Below are positions 28,190-36,243 of a DNA stretch of 64,000 bases, piece after piece. The notes below the pieces were generated by a model that did no database searches, had not been told where the DNA came from, and saw only the letters and a list, made by a program, of their open reading frames with translations. This stretch comes from Oscillospiraceae bacterium (GTDB lineage Bacteria > Bacillota > Clostridia > Oscillospirales > Oscillospiraceae): NCBI GenBank assembly GCA_015067725.1, contig SVLX01000004.1, forward strand, positions 1 to 64,000. Direction: 5' to 3'. Both the position numbers and the translations under genes were made by a program. Within the stretch, counting starts at the first letter, position 1. Each line of letters starts with the position of its first letter.

Positions 28190-29731
28190 TTAGCCTTCAC
28201 CAAGAACATGGTGACAGGCAACAAAGTGGTTAGGACGCAGCTCACGCCAGTCAGGGACGACCTGGGTGCAGATCTCGGTGCAGAACTTACAACGAGTGTG
28301 GAACTTACAGCCCTTGGGAGGACGAACAGGACTGGGAATATCACCCTCAAGAATCTCAGGATTCTTGTTGGCGTCAGGATCTGTAGTGGGAATTGCCTTC
28401 AATAGTGCATCGGTATAGGGATGCAGAGGATGGGCAAAGATATCATCCGCAGGAGCCAGCTCAACCATGTTGCCCAGATACATAACGCCGATACGGTCGG
28501 AGATGTACTTAACAACAGACAGGTCGTGGGTAATAAACATGTAGGTCAGATTCTGCTTTTCCTTCAGCTCCAGCAGCAGGTTGATAACCTGAGCCTGAAT
28601 AGATACGTCCAGAGCAGAAACAGCCTCGTCACAAACCACAAACTTGGGCCGCAGAGCAAGAGAGCGAGCAATACCAATTCTCTGACGTTGACCACCGGAG
28701 AACTGATGGGGGTAACGATGGAGGAAGTAAGGTGCAAGGCCACACTCTTCCATAACGCGAATGACATCCTCCTGCATACGGGGACCATTCTTACGGAAGA
28801 ACTTATGAGCAATCATGCCCTCGCCGATGATCTGACCAACAGTCATTCTGGGATTCAGAGAAGAGTAGGGATCCTGGAAGATCAGCTGCAGATCGCTACG
28901 GAGTAAACGCATCTCATCATAAGTAAGACGAGCAAGGTCGATACCCGTGCTCAGATAAGCATCGTACTTATCGAAATCGGGATCATTTCTGTGCTGATTC
29001 CGAAGCTGCTCAATGCGAACATTGACTTCCTGAATACGAGCACGAATAGCCGCAATCTTGGTATCGCACTTCTTCAGCTTATCATTGGACTTCTCGATTG
29101 CAGTCTTCTTAGATGCGATAGGCTTGCCATCCTGCTCAGCCTGCTTGCAATCAAAAGCAGCGTCATCAGCATCAAGCTGAGCATCCTCGCGCTCAAGAAT
29201 AGCCAGATGCAACTCACGAGAAATCTTGTACTTTTCCGCAAATACCTTGGAAATGGGGGACATATCGGGAGCTGCGAGAAGACCGCCAATCAAGGTAGCC
29301 ATGTCCAGCACAGCATCATTGGCTTCCTTCTTCATGCGAGTCAGCTCAGCATGCTTAGCATACTGATCGGTCTCAGAGAGTCTTTCATATTCAGCCTTAA
29401 ATTCATCGTACTTCTGCTGCAGGACGAACATCTTCTCCTTGCGCTTAGCCAGGGAGCAGTAGGTCTTGTACGCATAGGAAGGGGCGACCTCTTCAATGGA
29501 GCGGCCAAAATACATAGTACGACCATCGGTCTGCTTATAGAGCTGCAGAATAGAGCGACCAAGGGTGGACTTACCACAGCCAGACTCACCGACGAGACCA
29601 AAGGTTTCGCCCTCGTAAATGTCGATGGAGATGCCGTCGTTGGCCTTAACAGAAAGGCCCTTCTTGCCGGTGGGGAAATACTGCTTCAGGTTGGAAATCT
29701 GGAGCAAAACCTTCTTTTCTTTATTTTCCAT
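28190..29731 (-). CDS. oppF: Oligopeptide ABC transporter ATPase OppF with a large helical insertion
   Basis: At 513 residues this is far longer than a usual OppF (about 310-340). Walker A is GESGCGKST (48-56). Then a roughly 190-residue charged helical insert (about 78-268, coding 28928-29494) precedes the Q-loop region RSDLQLIFQDPYSSLNP. Signature FSGGQRQRIGIAR, Walker B VVCDEAVSALDVS and switch THDLSVV follow. The C-terminus has the OppD/F Cys motif (CKFHTRCKFC). The insert is rich in Lys, Glu, Asp and Ala, with heptad-like stretches that suggest a coiled-coil hairpin. The start at 29731 has GGAGG upstream and overlaps oppD by 11 nt. Core residues are intact, so it should be active. Confidence 0.88.
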   Translation of the reverse strand: MENKEKKVLLQISNLKQYFPTGKKGLSVKANDGISIDIYEGETFGLVGESGCGKSTLGRSILQLYKQTDGRTMYFGRSIEEVAPSYAYKTYCSLAKRKEKMFVLQQKYDEFKAEYERLSETDQYAKHAELTRMKKEANDAVLDMATLIGGLLAAPDMSPISKVFAEKYKISRELHLAILEREDAQLDADDAAFDCKQAEQDGKPIASKKTAIEKSNDKLKKCDTKIAAIRARIQEVNVRIEQLRNQHRNDPDFDKYDAYLSTGIDLARLTYDEMRLLRSDLQLIFQDPYSSLNPRMTVGQIIGEGMIAHKFFRKNGPRMQEDVIRVMEECGLAPYFLHRYPHQFSGGQRQRIGIARSLALRPKFVVCDEAVSALDVSIQAQVINLLLELKEKQNLTYMFITHDLSVVKYISDRIGVMYLGNMVELAPADDIFAHPLHPYTDALLKAIPTTDPDANKNPEILEGDIPSPVRPPKGCKFHTRCKFCTEICTQVVPDWRELRPNHFVACHHVLGEG

Positions 29732-30713
29732 TGCGACGAGCCTCCTTATCAGGATAGAAGCAACGAACTTCCTGGCCATCTGCTACGGGAACAAGTTCAG
29801 GTTCTTCCTCTTCGCAACGCTTGGTGCAATATTTGCAACGCGGGGCGAACTTACATCCCTTGGGCAGTGCAAGAGGATGAGGAACAGCACCGGGAATCGC
29901 ATCGAGGCGCTCCTCAGTGGTATCCAGGCGAGGAACAGAGGCAAGCAAGCCCTCAGTGTACGGGTGAGAGAACTTGGGATTCTTGGAGAACAGCACTTCA
30001 GCGGGTACATGCTCAACAACCTGACCGCAGTACATAACAGCAACGTCATCTGCCATCTGATTAATAACACCCAAGTCGTGAGTAATGAACATAATGGCCG
30101 TGCCGTGGCGATGCTTAAGGTCGTTCATCAGGTACAAAATCTGAGCCTGAATGGTAACGTCCAGAGCGGTGGTGGGTTCGTCGGCAATCAGCAGCTTAGG
30201 CTCGCAGGCCAGGGCAATAGCAATCATAACACGCTGACGCATACCGCCGGAGAGCTGGTGGGGGTACTGGTTAATTACGACCTCGGGATTGGGAATCTTG
30301 ACGTCTTCCAGCATCTTCAGAGCAGCAGCAGCAGCCTCTTTCTTGCCCATATGACGATGGATAATGAAGGGCTCAGAAAGCTGACGCTTGACAGAGAAGA
30401 CGGGGTTTAGCGCAGTCATGGGCTCCTGGAAAATGACGGAGATGTCATTACCGCGGATAGCATACATTTCCTCACGGCTGCACTTGGTCAGATCCTTGTC
30501 GCCAAAGAGAATCTCGCCGGAATCGATATAGCCATTACCGTCAAGGAGCTGCAAAATGCTCATGGCGGAAACAGACTTGCCGGAGCCAGACTCACCAACA
30601 ACGCCGAGGGTCTTACCTTCGTCAACAGAGTAAGAGACGCCGTTGACAGCCTTAATGATACCTTTCTTCGTACGGAAGAAGGTATGAAGGTCTCTCAATT
30701 CAAGTAATGCCAT
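29721..30713 (-). CDS. oppD: Oligopeptide ABC transporter ATPase OppD
   Basis: This 330-residue ATPase has normal length. Walker A GESGSGKS (about 40-47), Q-loop IFQEPMTALNP, signature LSGGMRQRVMIA, Walker B LLIADEPTTALDV, switch THDLGVI. The C-terminal oligopeptide-transporter motif has Cys residues (CKFAPRCKYC). Unlike its partner OppF it has no insertion. It should pair with OppF to drive peptide uptake through OppB/OppC. It starts 12 nt after oppC. Confidence 0.95.
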   Translation of the reverse strand: MALLELRDLHTFFRTKKGIIKAVNGVSYSVDEGKTLGVVGESGSGKSVSAMSILQLLDGNGYIDSGEILFGDKDLTKCSREEMYAIRGNDISVIFQEPMTALNPVFSVKRQLSEPFIIHRHMGKKEAAAAALKMLEDVKIPNPEVVINQYPHQLSGGMRQRVMIAIALACEPKLLIADEPTTALDVTIQAQILYLMNDLKHRHGTAIMFITHDLGVINQMADDVAVMYCGQVVEHVPAEVLFSKNPKFSHPYTEGLLASVPRLDTTEERLDAIPGAVPHPLALPKGCKFAPRCKYCTKRCEEEEPELVPVADGQEVRCFYPDKEARRNGK

Positions 30714-30725
30714 TCTTCTTCCTCC

Positions 30726-32687
30726 TTACTTATCGCGGTTGGACTTGGGGTCCATAACGTCACGCAGGTTATCACCAACAATATTGATGCAGATGGTGCA
30801 AATGGACAGCAGAGCTGCGGGGAATACCCACTGCCACCAGAAGTTACGAATAACGATGGAGTCATTTGCAGCAGTCAGCATGTTGCCCCAAGTGGGCCGG
30901 GGATACTGAACACCAAAGCCCAAGTAGGACAGAGAGGACTCAGTCAACAGGCAGGAGGCAAAGCTCAGCGTCAGGTTAACCAGAACAACGGACATGACGT
31001 TGGGCAGAATGTGCTTGAAAGCAATTCTACGCTCTGCAATGCCAAGGGACTTGGCAGCGGTAACGAATTCCTTCTCACGTTCAGCCAGAATCTGAGCACG
31101 AATCATCTTAGCCAGACCAGTCCAAGAGAGAACACCGAGGACGACCATGATCAAGAAAATCTTCTGGTTCTCAGACAGGGAGGAACGAATCAAAATGGCA
31201 GAGAGAATCATAGCAAAGGGCAGGAAGGGAATAGATCCGAACACTTCAGTAATACGCATCAGCAGCATATCGACCTTACCACCAGCATAACCAGAGATAC
31301 AGCCAATGATGATTGCAATGACAGAGGAAATGATAACGGCAATCGCACCAACAGACATTGTCATCTTACCGCCATGTACGCAACGCGCAAAGACATCAAC
31401 ACCATAGCCGTCAGTGCCGAAGATATAGCCCTTAAGGCCCCACTTGGCCTGAAGCTGGTTGTTCTCATCCAGAGCGTAGTTCTGGAAAGAGGTGGTGATG
31501 ATGCGGGCAGCACCATTGGCATCGTCGTCAACGTTCAGCTGATTGCGGTGGTTGGAGCCCCATGCATAGACATTGCCCTTATTGGTGATACCAACATAAT
31601 GATTGGCGCCACCCTGGATGTCAACATAGTACTCATCACTGGGCAGAGCAGGAATATCTTTCTCACCAAAGCCAAAGTTACCGGAGAAGACAACTTCTCT
31701 GGCGGCTGCACGCTCAGCATCGGTGGTAGCGGCTGCATCTGCTTCTTCATCCACGATGAGGATAGCAACAGTCTTACCTGTGGAGGCAATCTGAGAAACT
31801 GTTCTCTTGCCGATATATCTAGCCAAGCTCAGGTTGGGGTCGCCGTTGACGGTATCATAGACACCTCTCATGTTACCAACGCCAACAGTACCATCAGCTC
31901 TAAGAGCGAAGATGTAGTTATTGGTGTAGGTGATGTCAACGATGTCGGTATAGTTAGTAACGTTGGTCATGTTCAGACAGGCATTGGAGTTACCGAAGGT
32001 AATCAGGGTGCCGTCATTCATGACAATAGCGGTGGACTGATAGCCACACTTGACATCAACAACCTTGTCAATATCGACCATGGCATCGGGAAGAACAGTG
32101 TTGGCATCGGTGCCTCTGTTGTCCTTATACTCAGTACCGGGATACTGACCCAGACGGTTGTTGCCCCAGCCAATGACCTTACCTTCTTCGGTAATTGCGA
32201 TAGCATGGTCAAAGCCGGCTGCAGCAAAGGCGATCTTGGAATTCAAGACTTCCTCAGGAATGTCCTTCATGTCGTAACCGGTGGTACCCAGCTTGGTGGA
32301 ACCCCAAACATAAACCTTACCGGCATTGGAAAGACCAACAGAGAAATGGGAATAGCTGGAAATGGACTTAACATCATCGGCCAGCTCGGAAGGAACGCTC
32401 ATCAGGCTGAACGTAGGAGCCAAATTTTTCTGGTTAACCTCGGTATAGGTCAGATCCAGAGGGACAAAGCTGGGTGCAACGAAGGACAGCAAGAACATGA
32501 TGATGATGACCACGCATGCGCCAACAGCCAGCTTCCGTTCCATAAAGTTGCGGAATATCTGCTTGGACGGGCTAACAATTTCCTCTACACTCATGGCATC
32601 CATTTCCTTGGAAGAACCAAAGAACGCACGCTTGAACCAACCGCCAATAGTGGAGAAGAAGCCCTTCTTCTTGGTTTTGTTCTTCAT
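30726..32687 (-). CDS. oppC: Oligopeptide ABC permease OppC with an inserted RCC1-like beta-propeller
   Basis: At 653 residues it is twice the length of OppC. TM1 is at about 53-72. Instead of the usual short external loop there is a roughly 300-residue domain (about 105-400, coding 31488-32375) with six RCC1/BLIP-II-like repeats, each ending near WG (KVYVWGS, KVIGWGN, NVYAWGSNH). The normal OppC sequence resumes at FGTDGYGVDVFARCVHGG (423-440), followed by five TM helices and the EAA loop AAKSLGIAERRIAFKHILPN. The propeller is therefore placed outside the cell between TM1 and TM2. It may bind substrate, the OppA lipoprotein or another surface partner. One continuous frame, no sign of an artefactual join. 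It starts 11 nt after oppB. Confidence 0.9.
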   Translation of the reverse strand: MKNKTKKKGFFSTIGGWFKRAFFGSSKEMDAMSVEEIVSPSKQIFRNFMERKLAVGACVVIIIMFLLSFVAPSFVPLDLTYTEVNQKNLAPTFSLMSVPSELADDVKSISSYSHFSVGLSNAGKVYVWGSTKLGTTGYDMKDIPEEVLNSKIAFAAAGFDHAIAITEEGKVIGWGNNRLGQYPGTEYKDNRGTDANTVLPDAMVDIDKVVDVKCGYQSTAIVMNDGTLITFGNSNACLNMTNVTNYTDIVDITYTNNYIFALRADGTVGVGNMRGVYDTVNGDPNLSLARYIGKRTVSQIASTGKTVAILIVDEEADAAATTDAERAAAREVVFSGNFGFGEKDIPALPSDEYYVDIQGGANHYVGITNKGNVYAWGSNHRNQLNVDDDANGAARIITTSFQNYALDENNQLQAKWGLKGYIFGTDGYGVDVFARCVHGGKMTMSVGAIAVIISSVIAIIIGCISGYAGGKVDMLLMRITEVFGSIPFLPFAMILSAILIRSSLSENQKIFLIMVVLGVLSWTGLAKMIRAQILAEREKEFVTAAKSLGIAERRIAFKHILPNVMSVVLVNLTLSFASCLLTESSLSYLGFGVQYPRPTWGNMLTAANDSIVIRNFWWQWVFPAALLSICTICINIVGDNLRDVMDPKSNRDK

Positions 32688-32698
32688 GTAAACCCTCC

Positions 32699-33745
32699 TT
32701 ACTTATTGACGCGGATACGAGGATCGACAAAGCCATAGACCAGGTCCGTAATCAGGTTACCGGCAAGGCTAATCAGAACATAGAACATCTGCAGGGCCAG
32801 GACAACCTCAAAGTCATTGCCCTGAAGCGCAAGGATGTAAGTTCTGCCGATACCGTTAATCGCGAAGATGTTCTCGATCATGATGGAGCCGGAGAAAATA
32901 CCCAGGAACCAACCAATAACCAGAGTAACAATAGGAATCAAAGCATTGCGGAAGGCGTGGGAGTAAATGACAGCCTTCTCACGGACACCCTTAGCACGGG
33001 CGGTACGGATGCAGTCCATTGACAGAGCGTCAACCATGGATGCACGGACGTATCTGGTCATACCGCCAAGAGAAGTAAATGTCATGACGATCAGAGGCAG
33101 AGCCAAGTGATACATCTTGTCAAGGAAGAGCCGGAATCCGGTATAGTCAGCATTTAGCGTCTTCATACCGCTCAGCGGGAACCAGCCAAGCAAGACGGCG
33201 AAGACAAAAATGAACAGAATTGCGGTGATAAACGCCGGTAGCGAGTAACCAATAATGGTACCAATCTGAACGGCAGTATCACGTTTACTTCCCTTTTTAA
33301 CAGCGCAGAAAATGCCGAGGGGAATAGTAATACCAAGAGCAAGAACAGTTGCGAAAATGTTTATGAAGACCGTATTTTTCAGCGGCGTAATCAGCACATC
33401 CACAACGGGCTTTGCCTCTTTGTAAGAATAGCCTAAGTAACCAGTGAGCAGACCCTTCCAAACCTGAGGATCGCCCTCGTGAACAGGGGTATAGGGGTAC
33501 AGACCCATCCAGCGCAGGTAACGCTGAACAATGTTGCCATCGGTACCAAACTGTCTGGAGTATTGTTCGCGGAGTTCATCGTAAGAGATAATGTGAACCA
33601 TGTTCTTGTTGGCCTTCAGGTAGTTCTCTGCTTCTGCACCAGCACGATCGTTCGGAATCAAGTTATAGATACAGAACATCAAAAAGGTCAGAATGAGCGC
33701 TACCAAAAGCATATATCCCAGTCGCTTAAAAATATATTTGACCAT
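32699..33745 (-). CDS. oppB: Oligopeptide ABC permease OppB
   Basis: This 348-residue permease has six predicted TM helices, the N-terminal KYIFKRLGYMLLVALILTF segment and the EAA loop region IRTARAKGVREKAVIYSHAFRNALIP. It is a normal OppB/DppB, slightly long because of an external segment at about 33-85 between TM1 and TM2. The start at 33745 has GGAGG 8 nt upstream. Homology to permeases begins there, not at the frame's first ATG (33808). Confidence 0.93.
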   Translation of the reverse strand: MVKYIFKRLGYMLLVALILTFLMFCIYNLIPNDRAGAEAENYLKANKNMVHIISYDELREQYSRQFGTDGNIVQRYLRWMGLYPYTPVHEGDPQVWKGLLTGYLGYSYKEAKPVVDVLITPLKNTVFINIFATVLALGITIPLGIFCAVKKGSKRDTAVQIGTIIGYSLPAFITAILFIFVFAVLLGWFPLSGMKTLNADYTGFRLFLDKMYHLALPLIVMTFTSLGGMTRYVRASMVDALSMDCIRTARAKGVREKAVIYSHAFRNALIPIVTLVIGWFLGIFSGSIMIENIFAINGIGRTYILALQGNDFEVVLALQMFYVLISLAGNLITDLVYGFVDPRIRVNK

Positions 33746-33913
33746 ACAGGTAACCTCCATTTTTGTGGAATACTCGGGATTAAGCTTTGTACGGTAGTAA
33801 TTGCTCATAAAACAGCTAAAAAACGGCGACTTTGCCGAACATTTGGCAACTCTGTATATCGCAACAAAATCGCCATTATTTAACTGTTTTAAGGAGCAAC
33901 AGGTATAGTGTTA

Positions 33914-34008: not shown

Positions 34009-36243
34009 TTAGTCGAACCAGTAGAAGTCGGCCTCATCCATGATGCAGAAGTAGGAATAGGAATCCCACAGCTCGGGGTCGATGGTCCAGTTCCAGGAGA
34101 AGTCATAGATGGTGGAGGTGAAGCCAGTAGCGAAGTTGAAAGCGGAGTACAGAGCGGGACCGGTGTAACCAGCGGACTCGTCCTGACCATACTCAGCCAG
34201 CAGGGTGTTGAAGTCGCCCTGAGTGTACTGGACGTTCATGCCGATAGCCTCGGTGATGGGAGAGCCAGCCCAAGCGGTCTTCAGCATCTCGGAGACGTTG
34301 TTATCGGTGGTGCAGAACCAGTTGACGACCAGAGGCATGTAGTACTCGCCGTTGACCTCGACGGTCTTGTAGGTGCCGTCCAGGGACTGGTAAGCCAGGT
34401 TGTCCTCGGTCTGCTCGGACTTAGCCAGCTTCTTGTAACGGATGCCCTCGGTGTACTCGCCACCCTCGGCGTTGTAGATCCAGCCGCCTTCCTCCAGGAC
34501 AGCAATAGCAGCAGCCTCAGAGGTAGCATACTGGTTCAGAACGATGGTGTCCTCGCAAGCGAGGTAGGGAGCCTGAGACAGGTAGTAAGCGCCATGGACA
34601 ACGGAACCGTAGCCGCCAGTGAACTGCTGAGCGAACTCGTTACGGTCGATGGAGTACATGATGGCCTGACGAACTTCGGTGAAGTAGACGGGGCCAAAGT
34701 CAGCACGGAAGCCCAGCTTGCCGTAGCCAGGACGGCTATAGTAGGTGGAGGCGAACTTGCCGGGGTTGTTGTCGATAACAGCCAGGGCAGCGTCGGTCTC
34801 AGCACCGCCGGTGATGTCACACAGGATGTCGATGCCGCCAGCGACCAGCAGGTCGTTCTGGGTTTCCTTAACCATCTTGATGTAAGCGATCTTCTCGATG
34901 GTGGGCTTGGTGCCGTACAGGGTGCCCTTGAACAGGGGGTTCAGGGTCAGGGTAGCGGTCAGAGCGGAGGAGTCCCACTCGGAGACAACGTAGGGACCGG
35001 AGTAGGGGTAGGTGTTGATGTCCATACGGGCTTCCTGGATGTGAGCGGCCATGACATAGGAGTCGCCGTCCTTAGCATACCAGTTGTCAGCCTCGGTCAG
35101 GCCCTTGATGTAGGCGCCTTCGCCATCGTCAACGACGTCGAAGTTCTCGCCCAGCCACATAGGCAGGTAGACGGGACCGAAGGAAGCGTAGGTGATGTCG
35201 TAGTAATAGGGCAGGTACTCGGGATCGATGGTGACGGAGAAGGTGTAGTCATCGATCAGATGCAGACCAGCAAAGGGAGTGGTCTCGGTAGCATCGTGGT
35301 AAGCCTGGAAGCCGACATAGTTCATACCGGCGTTGGCATCGCGGGAAGCAGCCTCGGTAGCAATGGGGGTACCGAAGACCAGAGTCTGAACCAGGTAGTT
35401 CTTAGCGGTGATGGGGCTGCCATCGGAGAAGACCATGTCTTCGTAAATCTTGATGGTGTAGGTCTTGGAGCCATCCTCGTTGTAAACCTGCTCCCAGGAT
35501 TCAACGACAGTGTCATTCCACTTGTATTCGCCGTACTTGTCGGCAGCAACAGTGGCCAGGCCACTGGTCAGACCTTCGATGTCCAGGTCGGAAGCGCCGG
35601 GGGAGGACTTACCGAAGCTGGAGTAACGGAAGGAACCGGACAGGTCAGTGGTAGAGCCCAGGATGACGCTGTTGGCGCCCAGGGTGGTGTCAACGGTGCA
35701 CTCCACGATAGCATCGGCAGCAGCCCAGAAAGGACCAACTTCGAAGCCCTGGATCTTAGCGTTGTAGACGAAGTAGTAGTCGTTGGAGTACAGAGGAACT
35801 TCAGCGGCCAGGTAGTTCCAGCGCTGCATGTACAGTCTCCACCACTCGTTGTAGATGTCGGTAGCGGTCTCGTAGTTGGTTCCTTCGGGCTCGCACTTGT
35901 AGACCATGGCCATGGAGAGGAAGTCAGCGCCGAGCTCATACTCTTCGCCTTCGTACTCGACATAAGCCTTGCCGTCGTACTCATAAACGTCGTCGATGGT
36001 GATGTACTCGCCGATGGCTTCGTACAGGGAGATGTAGTCGCCGTCTTCGCCATAGGTGTACTCAGACAGCAGACCGCGCTGAGGCTCGGTCTCTTCGGGT
36101 TCGGTGGGCTGGGTAGCCTCACCAGTGGGGTTCTCGGGGTTCTCGGTTGCGGGGGGATCGGTGGGGTCGTCGTTGCCAGTAGTGCAGGCGGCGAGGGCGA
36201 AGACCATCACCAGGGCCAGCAGCAGGGCCAACAGCTTTTTCAT
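34009..36243 (-). CDS. oppA: Peptide-binding lipoprotein OppA (SBP family 5)
   Basis: The 744-residue extracellular binding protein of the Opp system has lipobox ALAAC (Cys20) and a Thr/Pro/Glu-rich linker to about residue 55. A family-5 solute-binding fold follows, with the typical YTIKIYEDMVFSDGSPITA block and a C-terminal hinge region (RQAIMYSIDRNEFAQQF). Family members are commonly 520-600 residues; the extra length is mostly an N-terminal segment (about 60-160). AAGGAGG lies 7 nt before the ATG. Codon use is strongly biased to C/G-ending codons, more than in oppBCDF, consistent with very high expression. Confidence 0.92.
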   Translation of the reverse strand: MKKLLALLLALVMVFALAACTTGNDDPTDPPATENPENPTGEATQPTEPEETEPQRGLLSEYTYGEDGDYISLYEAIGEYITIDDVYEYDGKAYVEYEGEEYELGADFLSMAMVYKCEPEGTNYETATDIYNEWWRLYMQRWNYLAAEVPLYSNDYYFVYNAKIQGFEVGPFWAAADAIVECTVDTTLGANSVILGSTTDLSGSFRYSSFGKSSPGASDLDIEGLTSGLATVAADKYGEYKWNDTVVESWEQVYNEDGSKTYTIKIYEDMVFSDGSPITAKNYLVQTLVFGTPIATEAASRDANAGMNYVGFQAYHDATETTPFAGLHLIDDYTFSVTIDPEYLPYYYDITYASFGPVYLPMWLGENFDVVDDGEGAYIKGLTEADNWYAKDGDSYVMAAHIQEARMDINTYPYSGPYVVSEWDSSALTATLTLNPLFKGTLYGTKPTIEKIAYIKMVKETQNDLLVAGGIDILCDITGGAETDAALAVIDNNPGKFASTYYSRPGYGKLGFRADFGPVYFTEVRQAIMYSIDRNEFAQQFTGGYGSVVHGAYYLSQAPYLACEDTIVLNQYATSEAAAIAVLEEGGWIYNAEGGEYTEGIRYKKLAKSEQTEDNLAYQSLDGTYKTVEVNGEYYMPLVVNWFCTTDNNVSEMLKTAWAGSPITEAIGMNVQYTQGDFNTLLAEYGQDESAGYTGPALYSAFNFATGFTSTIYDFSWNWTIDPELWDSYSYFCIMDEADFYWFD

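Follow-up and report, generated by a model that had tools for sequence, protein, structure and literature searches.

The window, a 64,000-nt stretch of DNA, encodes an OppC permease in which an RCC1-like β-propeller is built into the chain between TM1 and the FGTD motif, an architecture that we regard as solid and virtually certain. The oppC gene (30726–32687, 653 aa) had been given exactly these coordinates in an earlier note made from the letters of the sequence; its strand is corrected here to minus. Translation and inspection of the start revealed an ATG preceded by AGGAGG. OppA, OppB, OppD and OppF are encoded beside OppC on the same strand, forming a complete oppABCDF operon that specifies a full type I peptide importer with OppC as permease subunit. 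The neighbouring genes are oppA (34009–36243, minus), encoding a family-5 substrate-binding lipoprotein of 744 aa; oppB (32699–33808, minus), with a TM1–TM2 (scoop-region) loop at about residues 46–130; and the ATPase genes oppD (29721–30713, minus) and oppF (28190–29779, minus), the latter of which contains an additional segment spanning roughly residues 95–275 (28955–29497). No ribosome-binding site is visible at the first ATG of oppB, and the alignments with homologs begin at residue 22; the gene therefore probably starts at Met22 (33745), and the stretch 33746–33808 (minus) would lie upstream of it.

Domain organization and predicted structure of OppC

Pfam analysis identified OppC_N with TM1 at residues 39–91 (32415–32573, minus; PF12911, E = 3.1e-9, helices 40–69 in the model described below) and the TM2–TM6 core, BPD_transp_1, at residues 458–648 (30744–31316, minus; E = 1e-32), with scores of 37.0 bits against a cut-off of 23.9 and 113.8 bits against a cut-off of 26.4, respectively. 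The NCBIfam equivalog Opp4C was the best of all NCBIfam models, although its score of 292 lies below the cut-off of 350. Approximately residues 92–417 (31437–32414, minus) form the propeller, which was matched by RCC1_2 in four stretches (9.8e-28, 95.7 bits against 22), by RCC1 (39.2 bits against 21.7) and by a WD40_RLD/RCC1-like model (7e-31). Sequence matches in the PDB divide in the same way, with E. coli OppC (8z21_B, 1.4e-48) covering residues 419–649, and UVR8, RCC1, HERC2 and BLIP-II covering approximately residues 97–400.

An AlphaFold2 model of OppC was built from 40 homologs (mean pLDDT 80.8, pTM 0.75). In this model TM1 is followed by seven blades and then by the TM2–TM6 core, and the blade strands lie at residues 106–129, 152–175, 209–233, 249–263, 296–336, 354–377 and 395–417. 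The predicted propeller is closed and seven-bladed, with pLDDT mostly above 80 over residues 100–420. Alignment of the model using VIA-align gave E. coli OppC (8z21_B) over residues 37–649 (Z 28.4, rmsd 2.7, 278 aligned) and BLIP-II over residues 94–407 (Z 25.8), with UVR8 at about 24 and UVR8/RCC1 matches in the range of Z 20–25. The earlier note had described six RCC1/BLIP-II-like repeats in the external TM1–TM2 loop and had named Pfam domain search and structure prediction beforehand as checks; both bear out the repeats and their position, while the count rises from six to the seven blades of the model.

The last blade runs straight into GYIFGTDGYGVDVFAR in the AlphaFold2 model. In the translation, the FGTDGYGVDVFAR motif occupies residues 423–435 (31383–31421, minus), directly after the propeller, in line with the claim that the FGTD motif resumes immediately after the repeats, and its F, G, T and D columns are highly conserved in the homolog alignment. 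The strand-connecting extracellular loops of the propeller are variable, and a loop in blade 5 (residues 313–329; 31701–31751, minus) is largely peculiar to the window protein, with conservation near zero over most positions of a 64-row alignment. Face-by-face analysis of propeller conservation in these 64 rows revealed no clear binding patch, since the conserved positions are mostly residues of the RCC1 fold. In OppC/DppC proteins the N-terminus and the coupling helix between TM4 and TM5 lie inside the cell (PMC12136057). By homology with this topology the propeller would be extracellular, as had been claimed.

Distribution and history of the propeller operons

Approximately 80 homologous loci, with about 34–66% identity, keep the same architecture and operon order, and chance or artefact can thus be dismissed; a find made in a single window is thereby recast as a long-conserved Clostridia clade instead of a one-off. 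A scan of genome contigs returned 43 loci, every one in Clostridia or unplaced Bacillota and most of them in rumen or gut MAGs, and the carriers include the isolate Lachnospiraceae bacterium YSD2013 and two single-contig genomes (G490 and G476). Carriers number approximately 10 among 60 close relatives. Sampling across the phylum gave full-length relatives in 14 of 398 genomes, and sampling across the class in 17 of 391 (two of them single-contig), the window's own genome being counted in both samples. Complete homologs consist of one frame of 600–710 residues, the sole exception being a frameshifted copy (L072), and the order oppA-oppB-oppC-oppD-oppF holds in every propeller locus with enough flank. 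No plasmid record matched over 80% of the query. A search of the window's own genome with Pfam RCC1 (PF00415) gave no matches, but the controls gave none either, which makes this negative uninformative.

A tree was constructed from the TM2–TM6 part only (101 rows, unrooted). A single branch with support of 99/98 separated all propeller-type OppCs (66/66) from the rest, and three OppCs that have long inserts other than the propeller were placed elsewhere. Because the non-propeller OppC is the general state and one branch holds all propeller types, the simplest reading of these sequences, on a tree that is unrooted, would be one ancient insertion. Judged from the sequences compared, the TM1–TM2 loop of OppC is generally variable in this lineage: the FGTD motif begins between ORF residues 76 and 193 in the ordinary non-propeller OppCs of the set, and at residue 292–456 in those of L012, L088 and L013. 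These last three (L012 628–2190, L088 649–2262, L013 139–2193) carry other TM1–TM2 inserts of approximately 200–370 aa, in which Pfam detected no domain above cut-off.

By sequence comparison and modelling, OppA in the window's subclade appears to be circularly permuted. An HMM of the C-termini of 12 unpermuted OppAs matched the window OppA over positions 4–104 of 105 (E = 6.5e-21), placing the segment that forms the C-terminus of unpermuted relatives at residues 73–185 (35689–36027, minus). The segment RWNxLxPxxPLYSNxYYDxYN, found at the end of unpermuted OppAs, is N-terminal in the window OppA, which also ends early, and its AlphaFold2 model matches solved OppAs from about residues 166–190 onward, falling short of their C-terminal part. 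Sister operons (L123–L125, L066, L068 and others) encode a standard, unpermuted OppA. On the TMD tree a single change accounts for the permuted OppA, whose operons sit within the propeller-type operons that have a standard OppA, with low support (50) at the fork of the permuted group; the permutation is thus most likely later than the propeller and not required by it. One further propeller-type oppBCDF set (L151 8922–13437) is preceded by two tandem oppA genes.

OppF is also modified in these operons. Pfam matched ABC_tran to the window OppF in two stretches, and a fast-evolving insert of about 180 residues between the ATPase motifs is present in every propeller operon with an intact OppF. The intact proteins are mostly about 510–590 aa long (474 in L149), compared with 344–433 aa in five non-propeller operons.

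Co-divergence with OppA and proposed function

If contact between the propeller and OppA is real, the two should diverge together beyond the history of the operon. Partial correlations of divergence were determined while controlling for the distances of every other subunit, and the strongest partner of the propeller was OppA in every set tested, with values of 0.79 (33 operons), 0.61 (62 operons) and 0.60 (40 non-redundant operons), versus −0.07, 0.07 and 0.03 for the propeller and its own OppC TMD. Within subsets the propeller–OppA value was 0.51 for permuted and 0.44 for unpermuted OppA, the latter set giving −0.21 for the propeller and its own TMD. For the 40 non-redundant operons, 60% subsamples gave 0.46–0.70 and a partial Mantel test gave 0.72 (0/5000). 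FastTree tree distances yielded 0.59 and log distances 0.57, and the value for the propeller and its own TMD rose to 0.21 with log tree distances. The second-best partner was the OppB external loop (0.30–0.38, non-redundant set). Pairs with known contacts, which behaved as positive controls, gave 0.75 (OppC TMD–OppB TM), 0.51 (OppD–OppF) and 0.24 (OppB loop–OppA), the first two ranking high. OppA–OppD, a pair without known contact, reached 0.38–0.47, and the background of such values is therefore not negligible. A contrast between propeller faces (0.70 versus 0.33) compares blocks unequal in size and rate. The blocks that co-diverge all lie outside the cell, where common selection could produce such a signal in proteins that never touch, and we take the sequence co-divergence as moderate support for docking or gating of OppA by the propeller, not as proof. 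It lends independent though indirect support to a likely role of the propeller next to OppA, whose docking it could gate according to the earlier note, the contact itself staying putative.

The most likely role of the propeller, in our estimate slightly better than an even bet, would be that of a docking or gating platform for OppA, a contact and a gating function that we infer from sequence. A seven-bladed RCC1-like propeller would have entered the loop between TM1 and the FGTD helix once, long ago. With the two termini of the ring brought together, the propeller would stand outside the membrane next to the translocation path, as a permanent platform that holds or orients the lipoprotein OppA above OppB/OppC. 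The OppB TM1–TM2 (scoop) loop would act on OppA jointly with the propeller, which could thereby influence peptide delivery or the sealing of the peptide cavity. More tentatively, and with somewhat less than even confidence, we suggest that the propeller, a remodelled OppA (permuted in one subclade) and the OppB scoop loop together define a separate class among the type I peptide importers, seen in gut and rumen Clostridia. Such a class would combine an extracellular docking/gating module with the OppF ATPase insert inside the cell, and OppA would bind to a platform that belongs to the permease itself.

Next in likelihood, though we consider it rather doubtful, is that the propeller binds a third party (a long peptide, a cell-wall or mucus ligand, a surface protease or, by analogy with BLIP-II, a target to be inhibited) and so brings a substrate or partner to the importer, with OppA co-diverging through the same ligands. 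Proteins and ligands are often bound by propeller scaffolds, BLIP-II (Z 25.8) ranks with the best structural matches, the extracellular strand-connecting loops are variable, and shared adaptation to a ligand would likewise yield co-divergence with OppA. However, no conserved ligand pocket was identified, and clustering of the neighbours of the 43 loci revealed no recurrent protease or surface gene, nor does an S-layer or ligand gene recur beside the operon. Nothing in these data favoured the earlier proposals that the propeller captures substrate or links the transporter to a protease of the surface or an S-layer partner.

Among the neighbours a single plausible candidate recurs, a small membrane protein of about 200–240 aa, which adjoins the propeller operon in 18 of the 43 loci, either upstream of oppA or downstream of oppF (L045 1576–2259, L046 8824–9417, L050 1633–2361 and 15 more loci); a search of the 64,000-nt window for it gave no significant match.

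It is improbable that the loop simply accepts domains freely and that the propeller merely shields or spaces OppA in the absence of specific contact. The wide variation of TM1–TM2 loop length in non-propeller OppCs, including the inserts of L012, L088 and L013, would fit such tolerance, but the propeller is retained in all members of a deep clade, its fold-defining residues are kept, and its divergence follows OppA and not its own permease. Finally, many carrier records are MAGs, which could leave room for an assembly chimera, frameshift fusion or misread ORF, but the approximately 80 independent loci, among them G490, G476 and Lachnospiraceae bacterium YSD2013, together with the constant operon and the gene's own ribosome-binding site, make such an origin scarcely conceivable.

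Comparison with known systems

A search of open-licence literature found no paper on an RCC1-like propeller in OppC, and domain databases probably list the RCC1–OppC combination without comment. How the binding protein docks and how the peptide is handed over are key questions for type I importers, and few receptor domains are carried by a permease (MalF-P2 and scoop loops). The propeller clade offers a large, natural and separable candidate docking domain that could be expressed alone, from abundant gut and rumen bacteria, and a natural experiment in which permuted and unpermuted OppA stand beside the same propeller.

The permeases compared were OppC/DppC from E. coli OppBCDF (8z21), DppABCDF (8z1v–8z1z) and M. 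tuberculosis OppABCD (8j5q–t). They share with the window protein the OppC_N domain, the FGTD motif, BPD_transp_1, the six-TM fold and the operon, whereas relative to E. coli OppC about 325 extra residues, the propeller, replace a loop of approximately 20–25 residues. GlnPQ and OpuA are importers with binding domains fused to the permease. In them, as here, an extracellular domain is covalently part of the permease, but the OppC insert does not have a substrate-binding-protein fold, and OppA is encoded by a separate gene. BLIP-II, UVR8, RPGR and RCC1 belong to the same repeat family and have the same fold as the OppC propeller; they are soluble or parts of other proteins, whereas the OppC propeller interrupts a loop of an ABC importer permease, and the likeness to BLIP-II is one of fold only, in a predicted model.

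In E. coli Dpp, the scoop motif of DppB, the equivalent of the OppB external loop, enters the cleft of DppA (PMC12136057). It resembles the propeller in being an external TM1–TM2 element of a permease that meets the binding protein in the same importer class, and differs in being a short helix-loop-helix of the B subunit; here the OppB loop exists besides the OppC propeller. In MalFGK2, MalF-P2 (residues 91–271) contacts the binding protein MalE (PMC3150292). Both MalF-P2 and the propeller are folded external domains of a permease subunit, the contact of the latter with OppA being one that we infer. MalF-P2 is formed from another loop and has another fold. By analogy, the OppC propeller may work like the MalF-P2 docking domain, for which the co-divergence with OppA is suggestive.
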